Origin: Prochlorococcus sp. AG-355-P18
GTDB lineage: Bacteria; Cyanobacteriota; Cyanobacteriia; PCC-6307; Cyanobiaceae
Reading direction: 5' to 3'
DNA length: 64,000 bases
Assembly: GCA_003280515.1 (NCBI GenBank)
Contig: QCER01000005.1
Location: 20,530 to 84,529 of the forward strand
In this document: positions 25,870 through 56,149 of the stretch, piece by piece
Position numbering within the stretch: the stretch's first letter is position 1
How the letters are laid out: every line of letters begins with the position of its first letter
Position numbers and translations under genes: made by a program
Notes under the pieces: generated by a model
The model's database searches: none
What the model was told of the DNA's origin: nothing
Seen by the model: the letters and a program-made list of their open reading frames with translations, nothing else

Positions 25870-27456
25870 ATGAGTCAAATACCTTTAAAAAAAGAACGAG
25901 ATCCTTCAATATTGATTTTAGATTTCGGATCTCAATATTCTGAATTGATCGCAAGAAGAATTAGAGAAACGAATGTTTTTTCTCTTGTAGTCAGTAACTC
26001 TATTTCAATTGAGGATATTAATGAAATTAATCCTAAGGGGATCATTTTGAGTGGAGGCCCAAATTCTGTATATGAACAAAATGCTCCTAAATGTGATGAA
26101 AAAATATTTAATTTAGGAATTCCTATTCTTGGCATATGCTATGGAATGCAACTAATGGTCAAAGAACTCGGAGGATCTGTAGTTTCAGCAACCAAAAAAG
26201 CTGAATATGGTAGAGCACCAATAAATATAGATCAAGAATCTGACCTCCTTATTGATGTAGAAGATAAATCAATTATGTGGATGAGTCATGGCGATTCTAT
26301 TAATTGTTTGCCTGATGGATTTAATAAAATTGCTCATACTGAGAACACACTCCATGCAGCAATTTCAAATGATGTAAAGAAATTATTTGGTGTACAATTT
26401 CATCCCGAAGTTATTCATTCAGAGTTTGGGATGATGGTAATTAAAAATTTTGTTTATAAAATTTCTTGTTGTGTGGCTGATTGGACACCCGAAACCTATA
26501 TAGAGGAAACTATTCCCAGGATAAGAGAGCAAGTGGGCAATAAAAAAGTTTTGCTTGCCTTGTCTGGAGGAGTTGATTCCTCAACTCTCGCTTTTCTTCT
26601 GAATAAAGCAATTGGAAATCAGCTTACATGCATGTTTATAGACCAAGGTTTCATGAGAAAAGGTGAACCAGAATTTTTAATGAATTTTTTTGATAAGAAA
26701 TTTCAAATAAAAGTTGAATATATTAATGCACGGGCAAGGTTTATCGGCAAATTAAAAGGGATTACTGATCCAGAACAAAAAAGGAAAATTATAGGCGAAG
26801 AATTTATTAGGGTATTTGAAGAAGAAAGCAATAGATTGGGACCTTTTCAGTATTTAGCCCAGGGTACTCTTTATCCTGATGTTATTGAAAGTGCTGGTAC
26901 TAATATAGATCCTAAGACTGGTGAAAGAATAGCTGTAAAAATAAAGAGTCATCATAATGTGGGTGGACTTCCAAAAGATTTACAATTTAAATTAGTTGAG
27001 CCATTAAGAAAACTTTTTAAGGATGAAGTCCGAAAAGTGGGAGCTGCTTTAGGTTTGCCTGATGAAATAATAAAAAGGCATCCATTCCCAGGCCCAGGAT
27101 TAGCTATAAGAATTTTGGGAGAGGTCAATAACGAAAAACTTGATTGTTTAAGAGATGCAGACTGGATAGTAAGAGACGAAATTAAAAAAGCAGGTCTTTA
27201 CAATGATATTTGGCAAGCATTTGCAGTATTGCTACCTGTTAAAACTGTAGGAGTTATGGGAGATAAAAGGACTTATGCATGGCCAATAGTTTTACGTTGT
27301 GTATCTAGTGAAGATGGTATGACGGCAGATTGGTCAAAAATTCCTTTTCAGATTTTGGAGAGAATTGCAAATAGAATCGTAAACGAAGTAAGTTCAGTTA
27401 ATAGAGTTGTTTATGATATTACAAGCAAACCTCCTGGAACCATTGAGTGGGAGTAG
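25870..27456 (+). CDS. guaA: GMP synthase (glutamine-hydrolysing)
   Basis: GATase (GICYGMQLM), PP-loop ([14 protein letters not shown]), C-terminus [10 protein letters not shown]. Confidence 0.97.
27444..27455 (+). repeat. left attachment core (attL), guaA stop region
   Basis: TGAGTGGGAGTA, identical to 33987-33998. Confidence 0.85.
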
Positions 27457-27494: not shown

Positions 27495-27577
27495 GATCAC
27501 ACACAGATCACACACAAAGATTTCTGATACCTATTTTCAAGGGTTTTCAAGGACGTATCACACACACGTCACACATT
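27495..27577 (+). promoter_or_regulatory. candidate integrase arm-type sites, left end
   Basis: GATCACACACA at 27495-27505 and 27506-27516; TATCACACACA at 27556-27566; CGTCACACATT at 27567-27577. Confidence 0.6.
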
Positions 27578-27594
27578 GATTTTTGTTTGTTATC

Positions 27595-27608
27595 GATAGA
27601 GAAATCGT
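27595..27608 (+). promoter_or_regulatory. shared element motif upstream of integrase
   Basis: GATAGAGAAATCGT, 12/14 match to TGTAGAGAAATCGT; inverted half ATCTCTACAA at 27621-27630. Confidence 0.55.
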
Positions 27609-27659
27609 AGATGAGTGTGAATCTCTACAAACTGATTATTCTTATTTTGTTATTCGTCT

Positions 27660-29135
27660 ATGGGTGTCAGAGGTAAAAATAAAGATACTTTCGCTGTATG
27701 GGAAGAGTTAGATATTGCTGTTGATGATGATTCTCCATTTGCTTACATCTACAAAAGATTGGATAGCGAAAAGCATAAAGATATTGAAGATAGATCTTGG
27801 TACATAGGAATCCCAGTACCAAATAGTAAGAATGGTAAAAGATTATCTCTTAGAACAAGTAATAAAGATCAAGCAAAAAGAAAAGCAAGACAAAAAGTGA
27901 TCGAGGTAATGAAAGATCTACAAACTGGGGTAGATATAGTTGGTACTCCTGTTCGAGATTTCGTAAAAGCATTCCTTCGTCATAAAGAGTCATTAGTTCG
28001 TGGCGTAATGGAAGGTAAGAAAGATGGTGGTGTCAGAAGTATTACTAAAGAAAGGTATGGATTGATCGAAAGTAAAGTTAGGAACTATTTCGTTCCTTTC
28101 GTAGGAGAAAAAACATCTGCCAAGACACTCAAGTACAAGAAGTTTGATGATGAATGGGAATCGTGGCGAAAACAAAACCCTGCTGGTCGAGGTAATAAGA
28201 AAGTTTCTCCTAAACAAGTGACCATAAAAGATGAAATGGGAATGATAAGAGAACTATGGGGATGGGGTCAGAAAGAAAAGTTCATTGATCCATTATCGAA
28301 AATGCCATTCGATGATTACAACTTGGTAGAGGATGAAAAAATCAGAAGAGATACTTGGGAACAAGATGAATGGAACAAGTTCAAAAGACGTCTTCGTGAA
28401 TGGTTGAAGAATGAAAAGAAATCTGATGATTCAGATAGGATCTGGGAATCATTTGTTGCTTATCAACTCATCTTCTTATTGGCACAGTCAGGACTAAGAC
28501 CAAAGGAATGGAGTTTGTTGAAGTGGAAGGATATCAAGTACTTCGATAATGAAGAGGCAGAGTTTGCTAATGATCGAACTGGTGTAGAAATGAGCATTCA
28601 TCCTTCTACAAAAACTGGTTTTAGAAAAGCATTCTCTAGAGGTGGAATCTACCTACAAAGAATCGAACAACAAACTAAGTTTCGTAAGAAGAATGATTAT
28701 GTCTTTACTCATCTAAATGGTAAAAGAATGACACCAGATTTCTTGAGTGACATTTTCAATGGAAAGGGTAAGTGTGATGGGATAGTTGAAGCGACAAAAC
28801 TAAAAGAACTTACTGGTAAAGAAATCGTTCCATATTCATTACGTCATTACTACGCTACTCAATCAATATATTCATTCGTCCCTGATACATTGATTGCTAA
28901 GAATATGGGTATTAGTGTTCAAAGATTACATTCTTCTTACGATCACGCTTACCTAAGAGTTCAAACACCTGATCTCTTCAAAAGGAGTACTAAACAATCA
29001 AATATCAGAGAAATGAGGCAAGCAGGTGTTGGAGATTTTGCTTTCTTTACTAGAAGAACAGAAAAGCAGTTAGTACAACCAACTCCTAAAAGTGCTGATT
29101 CAAAGTATGGAATCTTCATATCTGATGAAGAATAG
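27660..29135 (+). CDS. int: tyrosine recombinase/integrase
   Basis: C-terminal catalytic domain: SGLRPKEWSLLKWKDI (Arg I), PYSLRHYYATQSI (Arg II), LHSSYDHAYLR (Tyr); adjacent to att site. Confidence 0.92.
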   Translation: MGVRGKNKDTFAVWEELDIAVDDDSPFAYIYKRLDSEKHKDIEDRSWYIGIPVPNSKNGKRLSLRTSNKDQAKRKARQKVIEVMKDLQTGVDIVGTPVRDFVKAFLRHKESLVRGVMEGKKDGGVRSITKERYGLIESKVRNYFVPFVGEKTSAKTLKYKKFDDEWESWRKQNPAGRGNKKVSPKQVTIKDEMGMIRELWGWGQKEKFIDPLSKMPFDDYNLVEDEKIRRDTWEQDEWNKFKRRLREWLKNEKKSDDSDRIWESFVAYQLIFLLAQSGLRPKEWSLLKWKDIKYFDNEEAEFANDRTGVEMSIHPSTKTGFRKAFSRGGIYLQRIEQQTKFRKKNDYVFTHLNGKRMTPDFLSDIFNGKGKCDGIVEATKLKELTGKEIVPYSLRHYYATQSIYSFVPDTLIAKNMGISVQRLHSSYDHAYLRVQTPDLFKRSTKQSNIREMRQAGVGDFAFFTRRTEKQLVQPTPKSADSKYGIFISDEE

Positions 29136-29261: not shown

Positions 29262-29441
29262 TTAGGGAAGTTTGCCTTTTTTATATACGGTTTTCATAAA
29301 GTCATAAAGCATAGATCTGTCATATTCATCTTGACTGGGTTCATTATCAGGAAACTGTCTGTCTGCTCTTGGGTTGTTGAAGACCAGATCCTTTATGATC
29401 CCCTTGAATCTTTTGTATGTTATACCTTTCTTATTGGTCAC
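29262..29441 (-). CDS. hypothetical 59-aa protein (GTG start)
   Basis: Manual reading: MTNKKGITYKRFKGIIKDLVFNNPRADRQFPDNEPSQDEYDRSMLYDFMKTVYKKGKLP*; starts 3 nt after the preceding ORF stop. Confidence 0.6.
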   Translation of the reverse strand: MTNKKGITYKRFKGIIKDLVFNNPRADRQFPDNEPSQDEYDRSMLYDFMKTVYKKGKLP

Positions 29442-29444
29442 TCT

Positions 29445-29603
29445 TTATCTCTTTAGTATCTTCTTGAATGGTTTGTTCTGATAATCGTCATACTCTTGAA
29501 GTGCCCAAGAGTCCAAGAAAGAACTAACGCTCTTCCCATTCTTCTTGGATATAAACTCCAACATCTCATACGTTGGTTTGTTGATGTAAATGCTCTTCTT
29601 CAT
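29445..29603 (-). CDS. small ribbon-helix-helix-like protein (52 aa)
   Basis: Manual reading: MKKSIYINKPTYEMLEFISKKNGKSVSSFLDSWALQEYDDYQNKPFKKILKR*; ATGA overlap with the upstream small ORF; beta-strand/helix/helix pattern. Confidence 0.65.
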   Translation of the reverse strand: MKKSIYINKPTYEMLEFISKKNGKSVSSFLDSWALQEYDDYQNKPFKKILKR

Positions 29604-29764
29604 ACAAGGAACTCTTCTCTAATCTTTTGCTTTACCCATCCCGACCTACTGATGTACAAGTTCTTTTGTAAGTTGTGATCTAGCAAGTTGAGTAGATCTT
29701 CTTCATTAGCACCAAATGTGATTGGTACTTGTTTTGGTCTTGGTTTTTCGATTGTTTTTGGCAT
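29600..29764 (-). CDS. small possible ribbon-helix-helix protein (54 aa)
   Basis: Manual reading: MPKTIEKPRPKQVPITFGANEEDLLNLLDHNLQKNLYISRSGWVKQKIREEFLV*; ATGA overlap with 29445..29603. Confidence 0.6.
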   Translation of the reverse strand: MPKTIEKPRPKQVPITFGANEEDLLNLLDHNLQKNLYISRSGWVKQKIREEFLV

Positions 29765-29824: not shown

Positions 29825-30625
29825 CTATGTATATGTTTTTAGTGGTAGTTTTGGTTGATCTATAGGACAGATTGGAACATCACTATGTTCAAAATCAATA
29901 TGTTCCCACTTATCAAACTCAACTGAACTCAAGGACTTGTTTGTGTAGGAAATACGTTTCTTGATGCTTTTGGGATCAATAATATCTACACCTTGTTTGC
30001 TTTTTGGGATCTTGGTTACTCGTTCCTTTAGATGATTAGTAAGTGATTCTCTCATTAGTTCATCTTCTGAACACGTCCCTTCCCATATCTTGTTCATAGT
30101 ACGTTTGCTCATTGTGATGTTTCTGTTTCTTGTCGATCTCCACCAATGAAAATCAGGTCTTTCAAGAAGGATATGTATATGAAGGTCACCTGATTGAACT
30201 AACTCTAGATTCTGGTTTTTACCTTGTCTGAAGAACATCCCTTCACGTTCATTGAAGAACCATATTCTGATGGGGTTAGTTGGTCTAGTGGTGTTGTAAA
30301 AGAAATGAAGTATAACGTTCTTGATGTGACTGTTATCTGCGTACTGCTTGATGATGTCTTTGTTCGGTTTATAGAAGGAGATTGTAAGGAAATCTCTGAA
30401 CTGTAAGTTCTCTCGAACAATCATATTGGACAACCAATATTCCGTACTCCACCTCTTATTAGTAAGTTGATCGCCTTTTGCGGGAACTTTGCGGACATAA
30501 TCCGTTAGTTCGATTTTTGGACACACCATTTCCGTGAGTATGGTTGATTGCTCCTTGAATCTTGGATCTTTCAAAGATTCATCAACCCACCTTTTGACAG
30601 GTGCTTTCTTGACACTAGATGTCAT
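29825..30625 (-). CDS. probable HUH-endonuclease replication initiator (rolling-circle Rep)
   Basis: GDLHIHILLERPDFHWW (HxH metal-binding motif) followed downstream by SIKKRISYTNKSL (YxxK catalytic motif). Confidence 0.72.
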   Translation of the reverse strand: MTSSVKKAPVKRWVDESLKDPRFKEQSTILTEMVCPKIELTDYVRKVPAKGDQLTNKRWSTEYWLSNMIVRENLQFRDFLTISFYKPNKDIIKQYADNSHIKNVILHFFYNTTRPTNPIRIWFFNEREGMFFRQGKNQNLELVQSGDLHIHILLERPDFHWWRSTRNRNITMSKRTMNKIWEGTCSEDELMRESLTNHLKERVTKIPKSKQGVDIIDPKSIKKRISYTNKSLSSVEFDKWEHIDFEHSDVPICPIDQPKLPLKTYT

Positions 30626-30686
30626 AAGTTTTATTCGTAGTAGTTGAACTTTTGCGAAACATTCTTATTTCGTCTGGTTTATATAG

Positions 30687-30844: not shown

Positions 30845-31795
30845 TTAGAAGAAACCACTATCTTTCAAGATCAAGTTGTTCCATATTGCTAGTTCCTTCC
30901 TCTCGCTCATTACTGTTTCTAATCTCCTTCGATAGTTGTATCTTTGTGCTGCGTCTTCAGTTGTTTCGGCAAGCATTTGTAGTTTGGCGATGTATGATTC
31001 CCCGTGCTTTTGCCAAAACGTTTCTTTTCCACCAGATGCTTTGATGATGAAACCAGTAAATGATCTTATTGGTGCTTCGTGAAGTTCTTGTACTGTTCTT
31101 ATGTTGAACTGTTTCTTGATTGGGTCGGATGCTTTATCAAACCATTTTTGATTGAGTTGTTTTCTTAGGATTGCTTTCCAGAAAAGACCTTTCTCGTTTC
31201 TTTCTTGCTTTCTCAAGGTTGCTGTACCAGAAGGATTAGCAACTTGTAGTTGTGCTCCATACTCAGTACATACTTTTCTTAGTTCATTCTTCAGAATGTT
31301 CATTACCTCTTCACTCATATGAACATCATCGGGTCGAACAATATTGAACAAGTTCTCTTGCTTGTAACCCCATTTACCTTTTTCTCCATCTAATGCTGCT
31401 TTGGTTGGGAATCGAACTTGTCTTACATATGCCTTTGCTTCTCGTACTGAAACTGATGACGTTATGACCTTACTCTTTACTGCTGTAACTAACTCTTCTG
31501 GATCTAGGGCACAAAGTATATGGATGGTCGAATAAGACGCTGGTAGGCGATCTACGAGGTCTCTACGCTTATCTTCTGGTATATCTAATAGTTTCTCTCC
31601 AATAACCTTCAGTTTTGAAAATATCTTAGGCGAAATGTTGATATCATTTTTGTAGAGACCATATATCGATGAATCAAGTGATCGAAATGTCTCAGCAATC
31701 GATATCGATAGGTTACATATCTGTTTAGATGTTCCTGTGTATGGATTATTCTTTGCCACTTTCAAGGCATTACCAAGTGTTTGCTTAGGAGTCAC
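30845..31795 (-). CDS. 316-aa protein, possible ParB/KorB-like HTH segment
   Basis: LVDRLPASYSTIHILCALDPEELVTAVKSKVITSSVSVREAKAYV resembles HTH segments of plasmid ParB/KorB-type regulators; remainder unrecognised. Confidence 0.45.
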   Translation of the reverse strand: MTPKQTLGNALKVAKNNPYTGTSKQICNLSISIAETFRSLDSSIYGLYKNDINISPKIFSKLKVIGEKLLDIPEDKRRDLVDRLPASYSTIHILCALDPEELVTAVKSKVITSSVSVREAKAYVRQVRFPTKAALDGEKGKWGYKQENLFNIVRPDDVHMSEEVMNILKNELRKVCTEYGAQLQVANPSGTATLRKQERNEKGLFWKAILRKQLNQKWFDKASDPIKKQFNIRTVQELHEAPIRSFTGFIIKASGGKETFWQKHGESYIAKLQMLAETTEDAAQRYNYRRRLETVMSERKELAIWNNLILKDSGFF

Positions 31796-31832
31796 ATCTT
31801 TTACTGGGTTTGTTTGAACTATATCCTACTTG

Positions 31833-31902
31833 TAGAGAAATCGTCGAGAAAAAGACCATCAAGAAACATACACTCTACTACAACCAAATGTAGAGAAATC
31901 GT
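31833..31902 (+). promoter_or_regulatory. two copies of shared element motif in divergent intergenic region
   Basis: TGTAGAGAAATCGT exact at 31833-31846 and 31889-31902, 56 bp apart. Confidence 0.7.
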
Positions 31903-31914
31903 AGGATAATAAGA

Positions 31915-32861: not shown

Positions 32862-33035
32862 TTATGGATAAAGAAGATCAACAAGAGAACCATTACTATC
32901 TACGATCCTATATCTCTTGTTATATCTTGTTGCTCTATCTTGAGCAGTTTTTCTTGCTGATGGAACGTGGTACATCGAAGTGTAGTGTTGCCATCTACCA
33001 AACTGATCTAACCATTGAACCTTGTGAAGTTCCAT
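32862..33035 (-). CDS. hypothetical 57-aa protein
   Basis: Manual reading: MELHKVQWLDQFGRWQHYTSMYHVPSARKTAQDRATRYNKRYRIVDSNGSLVDLLYP*; TAATG coupling with the serine recombinase stop. Confidence 0.6.
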   Translation of the reverse strand: MELHKVQWLDQFGRWQHYTSMYHVPSARKTAQDRATRYNKRYRIVDSNGSLVDLLYP

Positions 33036-33712
33036 TATCCGACCTCCAGAAGTGAAAGTGTTCGTGAAACTTTAGAAGGATGAAATGATCTTCCTCTGGA
33101 TGTTGTAATACCACTATTGTTCAAGACATCGCAGATAACTCTTAGAGATTTCCCTTGTTGCTTTAGTGGAACTATGAGACCTTCTAATCTTTTTGCTTCC
33201 TTTAGTGCTTTTTCTCTTCTTGCTTTAGCAAGTGCTTCGATATGGTGTATTGGTGCTCCTAGTTTCTTGTCAGGATTTCTTTCTTTCCAACTTTGAAGTG
33301 CTGCTTTAGTACGAGATCCTATGAAATCTTTCTCTTGCTCATTTAGTGCCGAGTAAATGTGAAGTTGAAACTTATCAGCAAATGGCATCTGGGCAACTTT
33401 GAAGTTTAGATCCTTGTCTTCTAAAAGTGATGCTATGAAAGATACTCGTCTAGACAACCTACAGATCTTTTGAACCAATAATATTGCTGATTCTTTCTTT
33501 GCTAATGCGATTGCTTTCTTCAACTCAGGTCTATTGTTATCTCCACCTGATTGAACATCGGTAAATGAACCTAAGATCTCATATGGTTGTTCAGAGTAGT
33601 TGTCTAAGTAAAGATCAATATCTCTTTTTTGTGCTTCTAAACCAAGACCAGATTGTGATTGTTTCTGGGTACTGATTCTGTAGTACAAAACATACCTTTT
33701 TGACTGTTCCAT
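33035..33712 (-). CDS. serine recombinase (resolvase/invertase family)
   Basis: YYRISTQKQSQSGLGLEAQKRDI with catalytic Ser; SGGDNNRPELKKAI; C-terminal HTH SLRVICDVLNNSGITTSRGRSFHPSKVSRTL. Confidence 0.9.
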   Translation of the reverse strand: MEQSKRYVLYYRISTQKQSQSGLGLEAQKRDIDLYLDNYSEQPYEILGSFTDVQSGGDNNRPELKKAIALAKKESAILLVQKICRLSRRVSFIASLLEDKDLNFKVAQMPFADKFQLHIYSALNEQEKDFIGSRTKAALQSWKERNPDKKLGAPIHHIEALAKARREKALKEAKRLEGLIVPLKQQGKSLRVICDVLNNSGITTSRGRSFHPSKVSRTLSLLEVG

Positions 33713-33742
33713 TATGAATCGGACGATTGATATGCTTATTAT

Positions 33743-33831
33743 ACGATATCTCTACAGTAGAGACCATATATGATATGCCAGAATCATAGTTGGACACTTG
33801 TTTTCTCTTTTTTGTGTATGATTTCTCTACA
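33743..33831 (-). promoter_or_regulatory. two copies of shared element motif upstream of serine recombinase
   Basis: Reverse strand TGTAGAGATATCGT (33743-33756) and TGTAGAGAAATCAT (33818-33831). Confidence 0.65.
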
Positions 33832-33878
33832 AATCAGTCGTAGAGCAAGATTTGAAGTGTAAGTTTTGGTTATAGTTA

Positions 33879-33901
33879 CGTCACACATACATCACACATA
33901 G
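33879..33901 (+). promoter_or_regulatory. candidate integrase arm-type sites, right end
   Basis: CGTCACACATACATCACACATAG, same TCACACA core as at 27495-27577. Confidence 0.55.
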
Positions 33902-33986
33902 AATATCCGTGTTATCTTGTAAAAAAGAACCTTGTTATACCAAAGGATATGGTCGATTCAAAAATCCAATATTGGTCTGGTACTAC

Positions 33987-33998
33987 TGAGTGGGAGTA
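33987..33998 (+). repeat. right attachment core (attR)
   Basis: TGAGTGGGAGTA; preceding bases TCTGGTACTAC read SGTTEWE* in the guaA phase. Confidence 0.85.
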
Positions 33999-55667: not shown

Positions 55668-55822
55668 TTTGCAAGATTCGATTTTTTAATAAGATAAATT
55701 AATTTTAAACTTATCTTCTCAGTATTTATACTTATAAAATTAAAAAAATTCCTTTTAATACAAGCATTTGCAGCAATATTTACACACTAATCAATTATCT
55801 ATTACAAATTCTTAGTTATTTA

Positions 55823-56100
55823 AAAAAAGTGGAGTCCTTCCAGACTCCTCGTATCATTTGGTTGATAAGGCTGATATAACCCCATCTCCTTTAGAATCAA
55901 GCAGCAACTGGTGCTGTTTGACGGGAGAAACTAACGATTTTGTTAGCATTTGTGTTTTTGCTCTAACCGAGCCGGCTTCAGTCACCTTCCTTATGCCCCG
56001 TCGAAACCATTACAACCCCAAATAGTGGAGTTGAGCGGAATCGAACCGCTGTCCGAAACATCGGTTGAGATCACCTAGTCCAATTGGACATTTATATTCT
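55823..56100 (-). ncRNA. ssrA: tmRNA, two-piece circularly permuted (acceptor piece precedes coding piece); boundaries approximate
   Basis: Minus strand: GCGGTTCGATTCCGCTCAACTCCA (T arm/acceptor) then GGGGTTGTAATGGTTTCGACGGGG and tag ORF GCT AAC AAA ATC GTT AGT TTC TCC CGT CAA ACA GCA CCA GTT GCT GCT TGA = ANKIVSFSRQTAPVAA* at 55897-55947; terminal stem GGAGTC/GGACTCC + T-run. Confidence 0.95.
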
Positions 56101-56149
56101 GACAGGCAAAATGGTTATTGAATAGTTTTTTTACTAAGTTTTATCGTAT

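Follow-up and report, generated by a model that had tools for sequence, protein, structure and literature searches.

Three very short open reading frames sit directly behind a replication gene in the genome of Prochlorococcus sp. AG-355-P18, raising the question of whether frames of this size are genes at all and, if so, what they contribute to the DNA that carries them. Here we evaluated them in their 64,000-nucleotide genomic stretch (hereafter the window), in related loci of congeneric genomes, and against known systems in which small DNA-binding proteins accompany a replication initiator.

Three micro-ORFs are genes under purifying selection

The three frames, which we call o1, o2 and o3, are arranged head to tail:

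29600-29764, minus strand: o1 (RHH1), ATG start, 54 aa, predicted ribbon-helix-helix (RHH) protein
29445-29603, minus strand: o2 (RHH2), ATG start, 52 aa, predicted ribbon-helix-helix protein
29262-29441, minus strand: o3, GTG start, 59 aa, not an RHH protein

The original prediction, made from the letters of the window, described three minus-strand micro-ORFs of 54, 52 and 59 aa, and they are present exactly as claimed, including the ATGA overlap that joins o1 to o2 (29600-29603) and the gap of 3 nt between the o2 stop and the o3 start. These three frames are real genes, because an ORF chain like theirs (three consecutive ORFs, none shorter than 50 aa, joined within 10 nt) never arose when the 563-nt region was dinucleotide-shuffled 5,000 times, because their homologues evolve under purifying selection, and because their order is conserved. 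Differences among homologues fall mainly at third codon positions, with pairwise dN/dS for o1 within 0.07-0.33 in most comparisons and reaching 0.64 in the most distant ones. For o3 the range was 0.11-0.24, and for o2 dS was saturated and dN was 0.40. Purifying selection in related elements, the Ka/Ks check proposed at the outset, is thus present, and the frameshifts named as counter-evidence are confined to decayed element remnants at former guaA insertion sites, with intact elements free of them.

The third gene encodes a short conserved protein that belongs to a small Prochlorococcus family (A1) with conserved NNPRADRQ ... MLYD motifs. A search of 266 congeneric genomes recovered this family from 6, and in a separate family sample of 191 genomes (59 genera) it turned up in the window's own genome only. 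Searches with o3 returned no match in PDB, Pfam or PADLOC and none in PHROGs below E 0.27, and the protein bears no RHH-like resemblance.

RHH1 and RHH2 have a predicted ribbon-helix-helix fold

Two of the three proteins had been read as RHH-like, and we find that o1 and o2 are RHH proteins by predicted fold, o1 from its profile and o2 from a structure model. The o1-family profile aligns in register with the NikR RHH domain (E 0.018), and a broader RHH1 profile matches it at E 2.8e-4. The AF2 monomer model of o2 (pLDDT 82.7; helices 9-21 and 26-43) has structural matches that are almost exclusively RHH proteins, namely CopG (2cpg/1ea4), Arc, AtaR, PutA and ORF56 (2k9i), at Z scores of at most 6.8; since such values are expected for 50 residues, the uniformity of the match list outweighs any single score. 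The RHH superfamily is characterized by a CopG/Arc-type layout of one strand and then two helices, which is seen in the o2 model and, via the in-register NikR match, in o1. The RHH1 and RHH2 families resemble each other weakly, and a common ancestry of RHH2 across elements is weakly supported given its strong sequence divergence.

The trio follows a HUH-type rep gene in an element inserted at guaA

Immediately upstream of the trio lie the following features:

29825-30625, minus strand: rep, HUH-type replication initiator of 266 aa, with H149-x-H151 and Y227-x-x-K230
30655-30672, minus strand: hairpin CGAAA-TAAGAATG-TTTCG, upstream of rep and just downstream of a TATATAA box

The rep ORF ends 60 nt upstream of o1 on the same strand, so the genes do lie directly downstream of rep as first described. 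Its identity as a Rep is supported by two lines of evidence: HxH followed by YxxK is invariant in the five members of its family (A3), and two of the five match Pfam REP_ORF2-G2P (PF23343; best E 3.4e-4). In Reps the HUH motif precedes the tyrosine, whereas in relaxases the tyrosine comes first. A fold search with the low-confidence Rep structure model (pLDDT 54.6) gave no convincing match; Rep found no match in phage and plasmid records, and rep, o2, o3 and ParB found none in viral contigs. Upstream of rep, the hairpin stem occupies the same position in 5/5 family members (z -1.7 to -3.4), each time beside a TATATAA-like box, and its arms vary between members yet remain complementary, a covariation given here without a statistical test. 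This hairpin may be a candidate replication origin or operator.

Both rep and the trio reside in an integrative element with a repeat-to-repeat length of 6,543 bp (~6.5 kb), integrated at the 3' end of guaA in a Prochlorococcus genome of 1.45 Mb:

27434-27455, plus strand: attL at the guaA end, CTGGAACCATTGAGTGGGAGTA, direct repeat with attR, 19/22 identical
27496-27575, plus strand: left-hand arm-type sites formed by pairs of TCACACA repeats with 11-bp spacing, with a counterpart at 33880-33898
27660-29135, plus strand: tyrosine recombinase (integrase; Pfam Phage_integrase 3.9e-8, PHROG integrase 3.6e-17), convergent with the rep operon
30845-31795, minus strand: ParB-HTH-like protein of 316 aa (c37, family A4), first gene upstream of rep, with a weak HTH_ParB match (E 0.14)
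33035-33712, minus strand: small serine recombinase (Pfam Resolvase 9e-22)
33977-33998, plus strand: attR, CTGGTACTACTGAGTGGGAGTA, second copy of the 22-bp guaA-end repeat

The unoccupied site is seen in two relatives (G122 and G008), where guaA runs straight into the right flank. On the minus strand the element carries, in order, the ParB-like gene, rep, o1, o2 and o3, plus further small ORFs. The TCACACA repeat is enriched in the element (8 copies versus 1.4 expected; 0 of 1,000 shuffles), and its paired copies flank both element ends as expected of arm-type integrase sites, with other repeated sequences occupying the equivalent positions in relatives. A tRNA scan of the window found no tRNA gene, returning only a tmRNA gene at 55806-56115 (flagged with an asterisk in the ARAGORN output).

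Some related loci differ in layout. Four of them (L008, L010, L011, L045) carry several guaA-end core copies in a row downstream of guaA, an arrangement suggestive of repeated element insertion at a single hotspot. In L010 (5519-7414) and L011 (12377-14368) a DUF5906 helicase-like gene lies divergent from ParB, in place of which the window element has a 186-aa ORF.

Gene order is conserved across loci and Rep families

A profile search with the c23 Rep family recovered 5 intact loci in 266 congeneric genomes, plus a remnant in G029, and in 5/5 of the intact loci rep is followed by RHH1 and then RHH2. These loci were found via Rep and so are a fair test of order, the window itself excepted. They include L007, where the o1 homologue behind rep is 74% identical, and L008, where the pair is present behind rep though missed by homology searches. 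The RHH1-RHH2 pair also stands behind at least three other HUH-type Rep families (L046/L047, L048/L045 and L030); those loci were found via o2 or o3 matches and are therefore not an independent sample. Across ten loci taken together, both RHH genes lie downstream of rep in 10/10, on the same strand and mostly with short gaps or overlaps. Behind the pair, o3 is present in five loci (the window, L010, L046, L047 and L048), and L007 and L011 have RHH1-RHH2 without a recognisable o3. With one strand, an order kept in every intact locus found, and several Rep families, the trio is part of the rep operon, as had been proposed.

Two further observations concern how these loci change. L046 and L047 barely differ in rep and RHH1 (dS 0.05-0.12) but have diverged strongly in RHH2 (dS 1.5) and o3 (dS 0.8), a pattern that suggests a recombination breakpoint inside the operon. 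Degenerate or truncated o2 copies also occur in five loci (L032, L034, L012, L031, L033) beside a gene of ~620-700 aa with an acyltransferase appearance, mostly at the guaA site, with copies on both sides in L032 and L034.

A repeated promoter motif tracks the ParB-like gene

The element contains a repeated motif that had been put forward, in a 14-bp form, as a site for footprinting of the RHH proteins:

31830-31847 and 31888-31905, plus strand: motif TTGTAGAGAAATCGTAGA, present twice in the promoter region that separates the ParB-like gene from a divergent gene

Further TTGTAGAGAAATCGTAGA-like copies lie upstream of the integrase (27594-27611) and upstream of the serine recombinase (33740-33757 and 33815-33832), and the core TCTCTAC occurs 9 times versus 1.3 expected. 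The same layout is found in L010 and part of it in L008, and in these two loci and the window the 14-18-bp motif and the ParB-like c37 are both present. In L011, where ParB is 40% identical, the motif version has diverged, and in L007, with RHH1 at 74% identity, there is no ParB and there are no motif sites at promoters. Judging from these few cases, the motif appears to follow the ParB-like gene better than the RHH genes, and the 316-aa ParB-like protein is the probable reader of the element's promoter motif. We considered and set aside the RHH proteins as its readers: the motif is probably not their operator because L007 keeps RHH1 without ParB and without the motif, though L007 is a single negative case, and footprinting RHH proteins on it would probably be the wrong test. 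We identified no operator in the element that is specific to the RHH proteins.

The RHH pair as putative autoregulators of the rep operon

The explanation we favour, at about even odds, is that the RHH pair autoregulates the rep operon, working like CopG, which represses the copG-repB operon (PMC6607859). In this reading, o1-o3 close the rep operon at its 3' end, in a small guaA-inserting integrative element with a putative HUH-type, rolling-circle-like initiator. RHH1 and RHH2 would be small dimeric DNA-binding repressors, either as homodimers or as an RHH1-RHH2 pair, that occupy the rep promoter/origin region and silence rep once the element has excised and replicated, in a negative feedback. 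The overlapping stop and start codons would tie RHH levels to rep translation, and o3 would be a co-translated accessory protein. The relaxosome-type, excisionase and antitoxin readings that follow are weaker than CopG-like repression.

An unlikely alternative is that RHH1 and RHH2 are not repressors and instead assist the HUH initiator, in origin melting or nicking or in a mobilisation relaxosome. The pair always stands beside Rep, and in the pLS20 relaxosome a single relaxase is accompanied by two RHH proteins, Aux1 and Aux2 (PMC5675868). However, the pLS20 aux genes precede the relaxase gene and the RHH genes of the element follow their enzyme gene, the element's proteins are much smaller, the motif order of its enzyme (HUH, then tyrosine) is that of a Rep, and we recognised neither a coupling protein nor any further conjugation function among the element's genes.

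Less probable again is that at least one of the three proteins serves as the excisionase (directionality factor) of the neighbouring tyrosine integrase. The trio does lie between rep and the convergent integrase, with o3 as the operon gene closest to the integrase in the window and L010, and no AlpA-type excisionase is recognisable in the window element, but L046 and L047 carry the trio plus an AlpA protein beside the integrase (PF05930, 1.4e-16 for the L046 copy), and a literature search found no RHH directionality factors.

RHH1 relatives also occur outside such elements. Three contigs whose T4-like replication genes are closest to P-SSM2-type cyanophages carry o1 relatives 67-71% identical within the replication gene cluster, in L043 between the sliding-clamp and clamp-loader genes, and two further phage-like contigs carry an o1 relative 45-50% identical upstream of gene 43 (L042-L044, L060 and L061 in all). 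It is conceivable, at low probability, that RHH1 mediates between the element and lytic T4-like cyanophages, with the element answering infection or the phage copy interfering with elements. A speculative form of this idea makes RHH1 a switch common to Prochlorococcus elements and T4-like cyanophages, in which phage RHH1 would bind the element control region or element RHH1 would bind phage DNA, and we give that, too, a slim chance. The phage and element upstream regions share no operator-like sequence, o1 had no match in 50,697 phage records, and simple horizontal transfer accounts for the phage copies. Among named cyanophages, S-SRM01 and P-SSM2 have no RHH gene upstream of gene 43, and P-SSM2 has none directly after gene 45.

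Finally, that the RHH proteins are antitoxins with o3 as their toxin is very improbable, for although AtaR and other RHH antitoxins rank high in the structural comparison, no toxin-like gene came to light, the neighbours of the RHH genes matching no known toxin family, o3 matches none of the families searched, the RHH proteins lack an obvious toxin-binding tail, and two RHH genes ahead of o3, together with pairs that have no recognisable o3 (L007, L011), fit such a system poorly. The original prediction stands for the genes, their purifying selection, the two RHH proteins and the rep operon; replication control is a likely role for them, the antitoxin option finds no support, and the 14-bp motif is probably not an RHH site.

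Comparison with known systems and implications

CopG-like repression finds its nearest parallel in CopG-RepB of the pMV158/pLS1 rolling-circle plasmids, which likewise combines a tiny RHH protein and an HUH initiator in one operon, an arrangement seen in all ten loci here, and whose CopG is matched by the RHH2 model. CopG-type regulators normally precede rep, however, whereas RHH1 and RHH2 follow it in 10/10 loci, and the element differs further in carrying a third gene besides two distinct RHH genes, in being integrated, and in a Rep that is not recognisably RepB. Because it lies downstream of rep and comprises two genes rather than one, we do not class the RHH pair as a CopG member. ORF56 of a Sulfolobus islandicus plasmid, one of the structural matches of o2, is also a small RHH copy-control protein, but it is archaeal, encoded by a single gene, and part of a different replicon. 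As an island built around a tyrosine recombinase, the element resembles the tycheposons and integrase islands of Prochlorococcus (PMC10872708, PMC10187409), and like the island of PMC10187409 it has a small serine recombinase near its integrase. It departs from the tRNA-associated insertion of tycheposons in that its att site is the guaA 3' end, with no tRNA, and in packing a Rep and the RHH trio into 6.5 kb.

Annotation readily overlooks genes as short as o1-o3, but these make up a conserved module. The constancy of this module behind changing Rep types suggests a control cassette of general use to the replicating mobile elements of Prochlorococcus, and the trio supplies concrete genes and sites for studying how element copy number is limited in a streamlined ocean host. 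The presence of RHH1 in cyanophage-like contigs raises the possibility of regulatory ties with cyanophages, and were RHH1 indeed a switch between phage and element, replication of the element would be released or blocked during infection.
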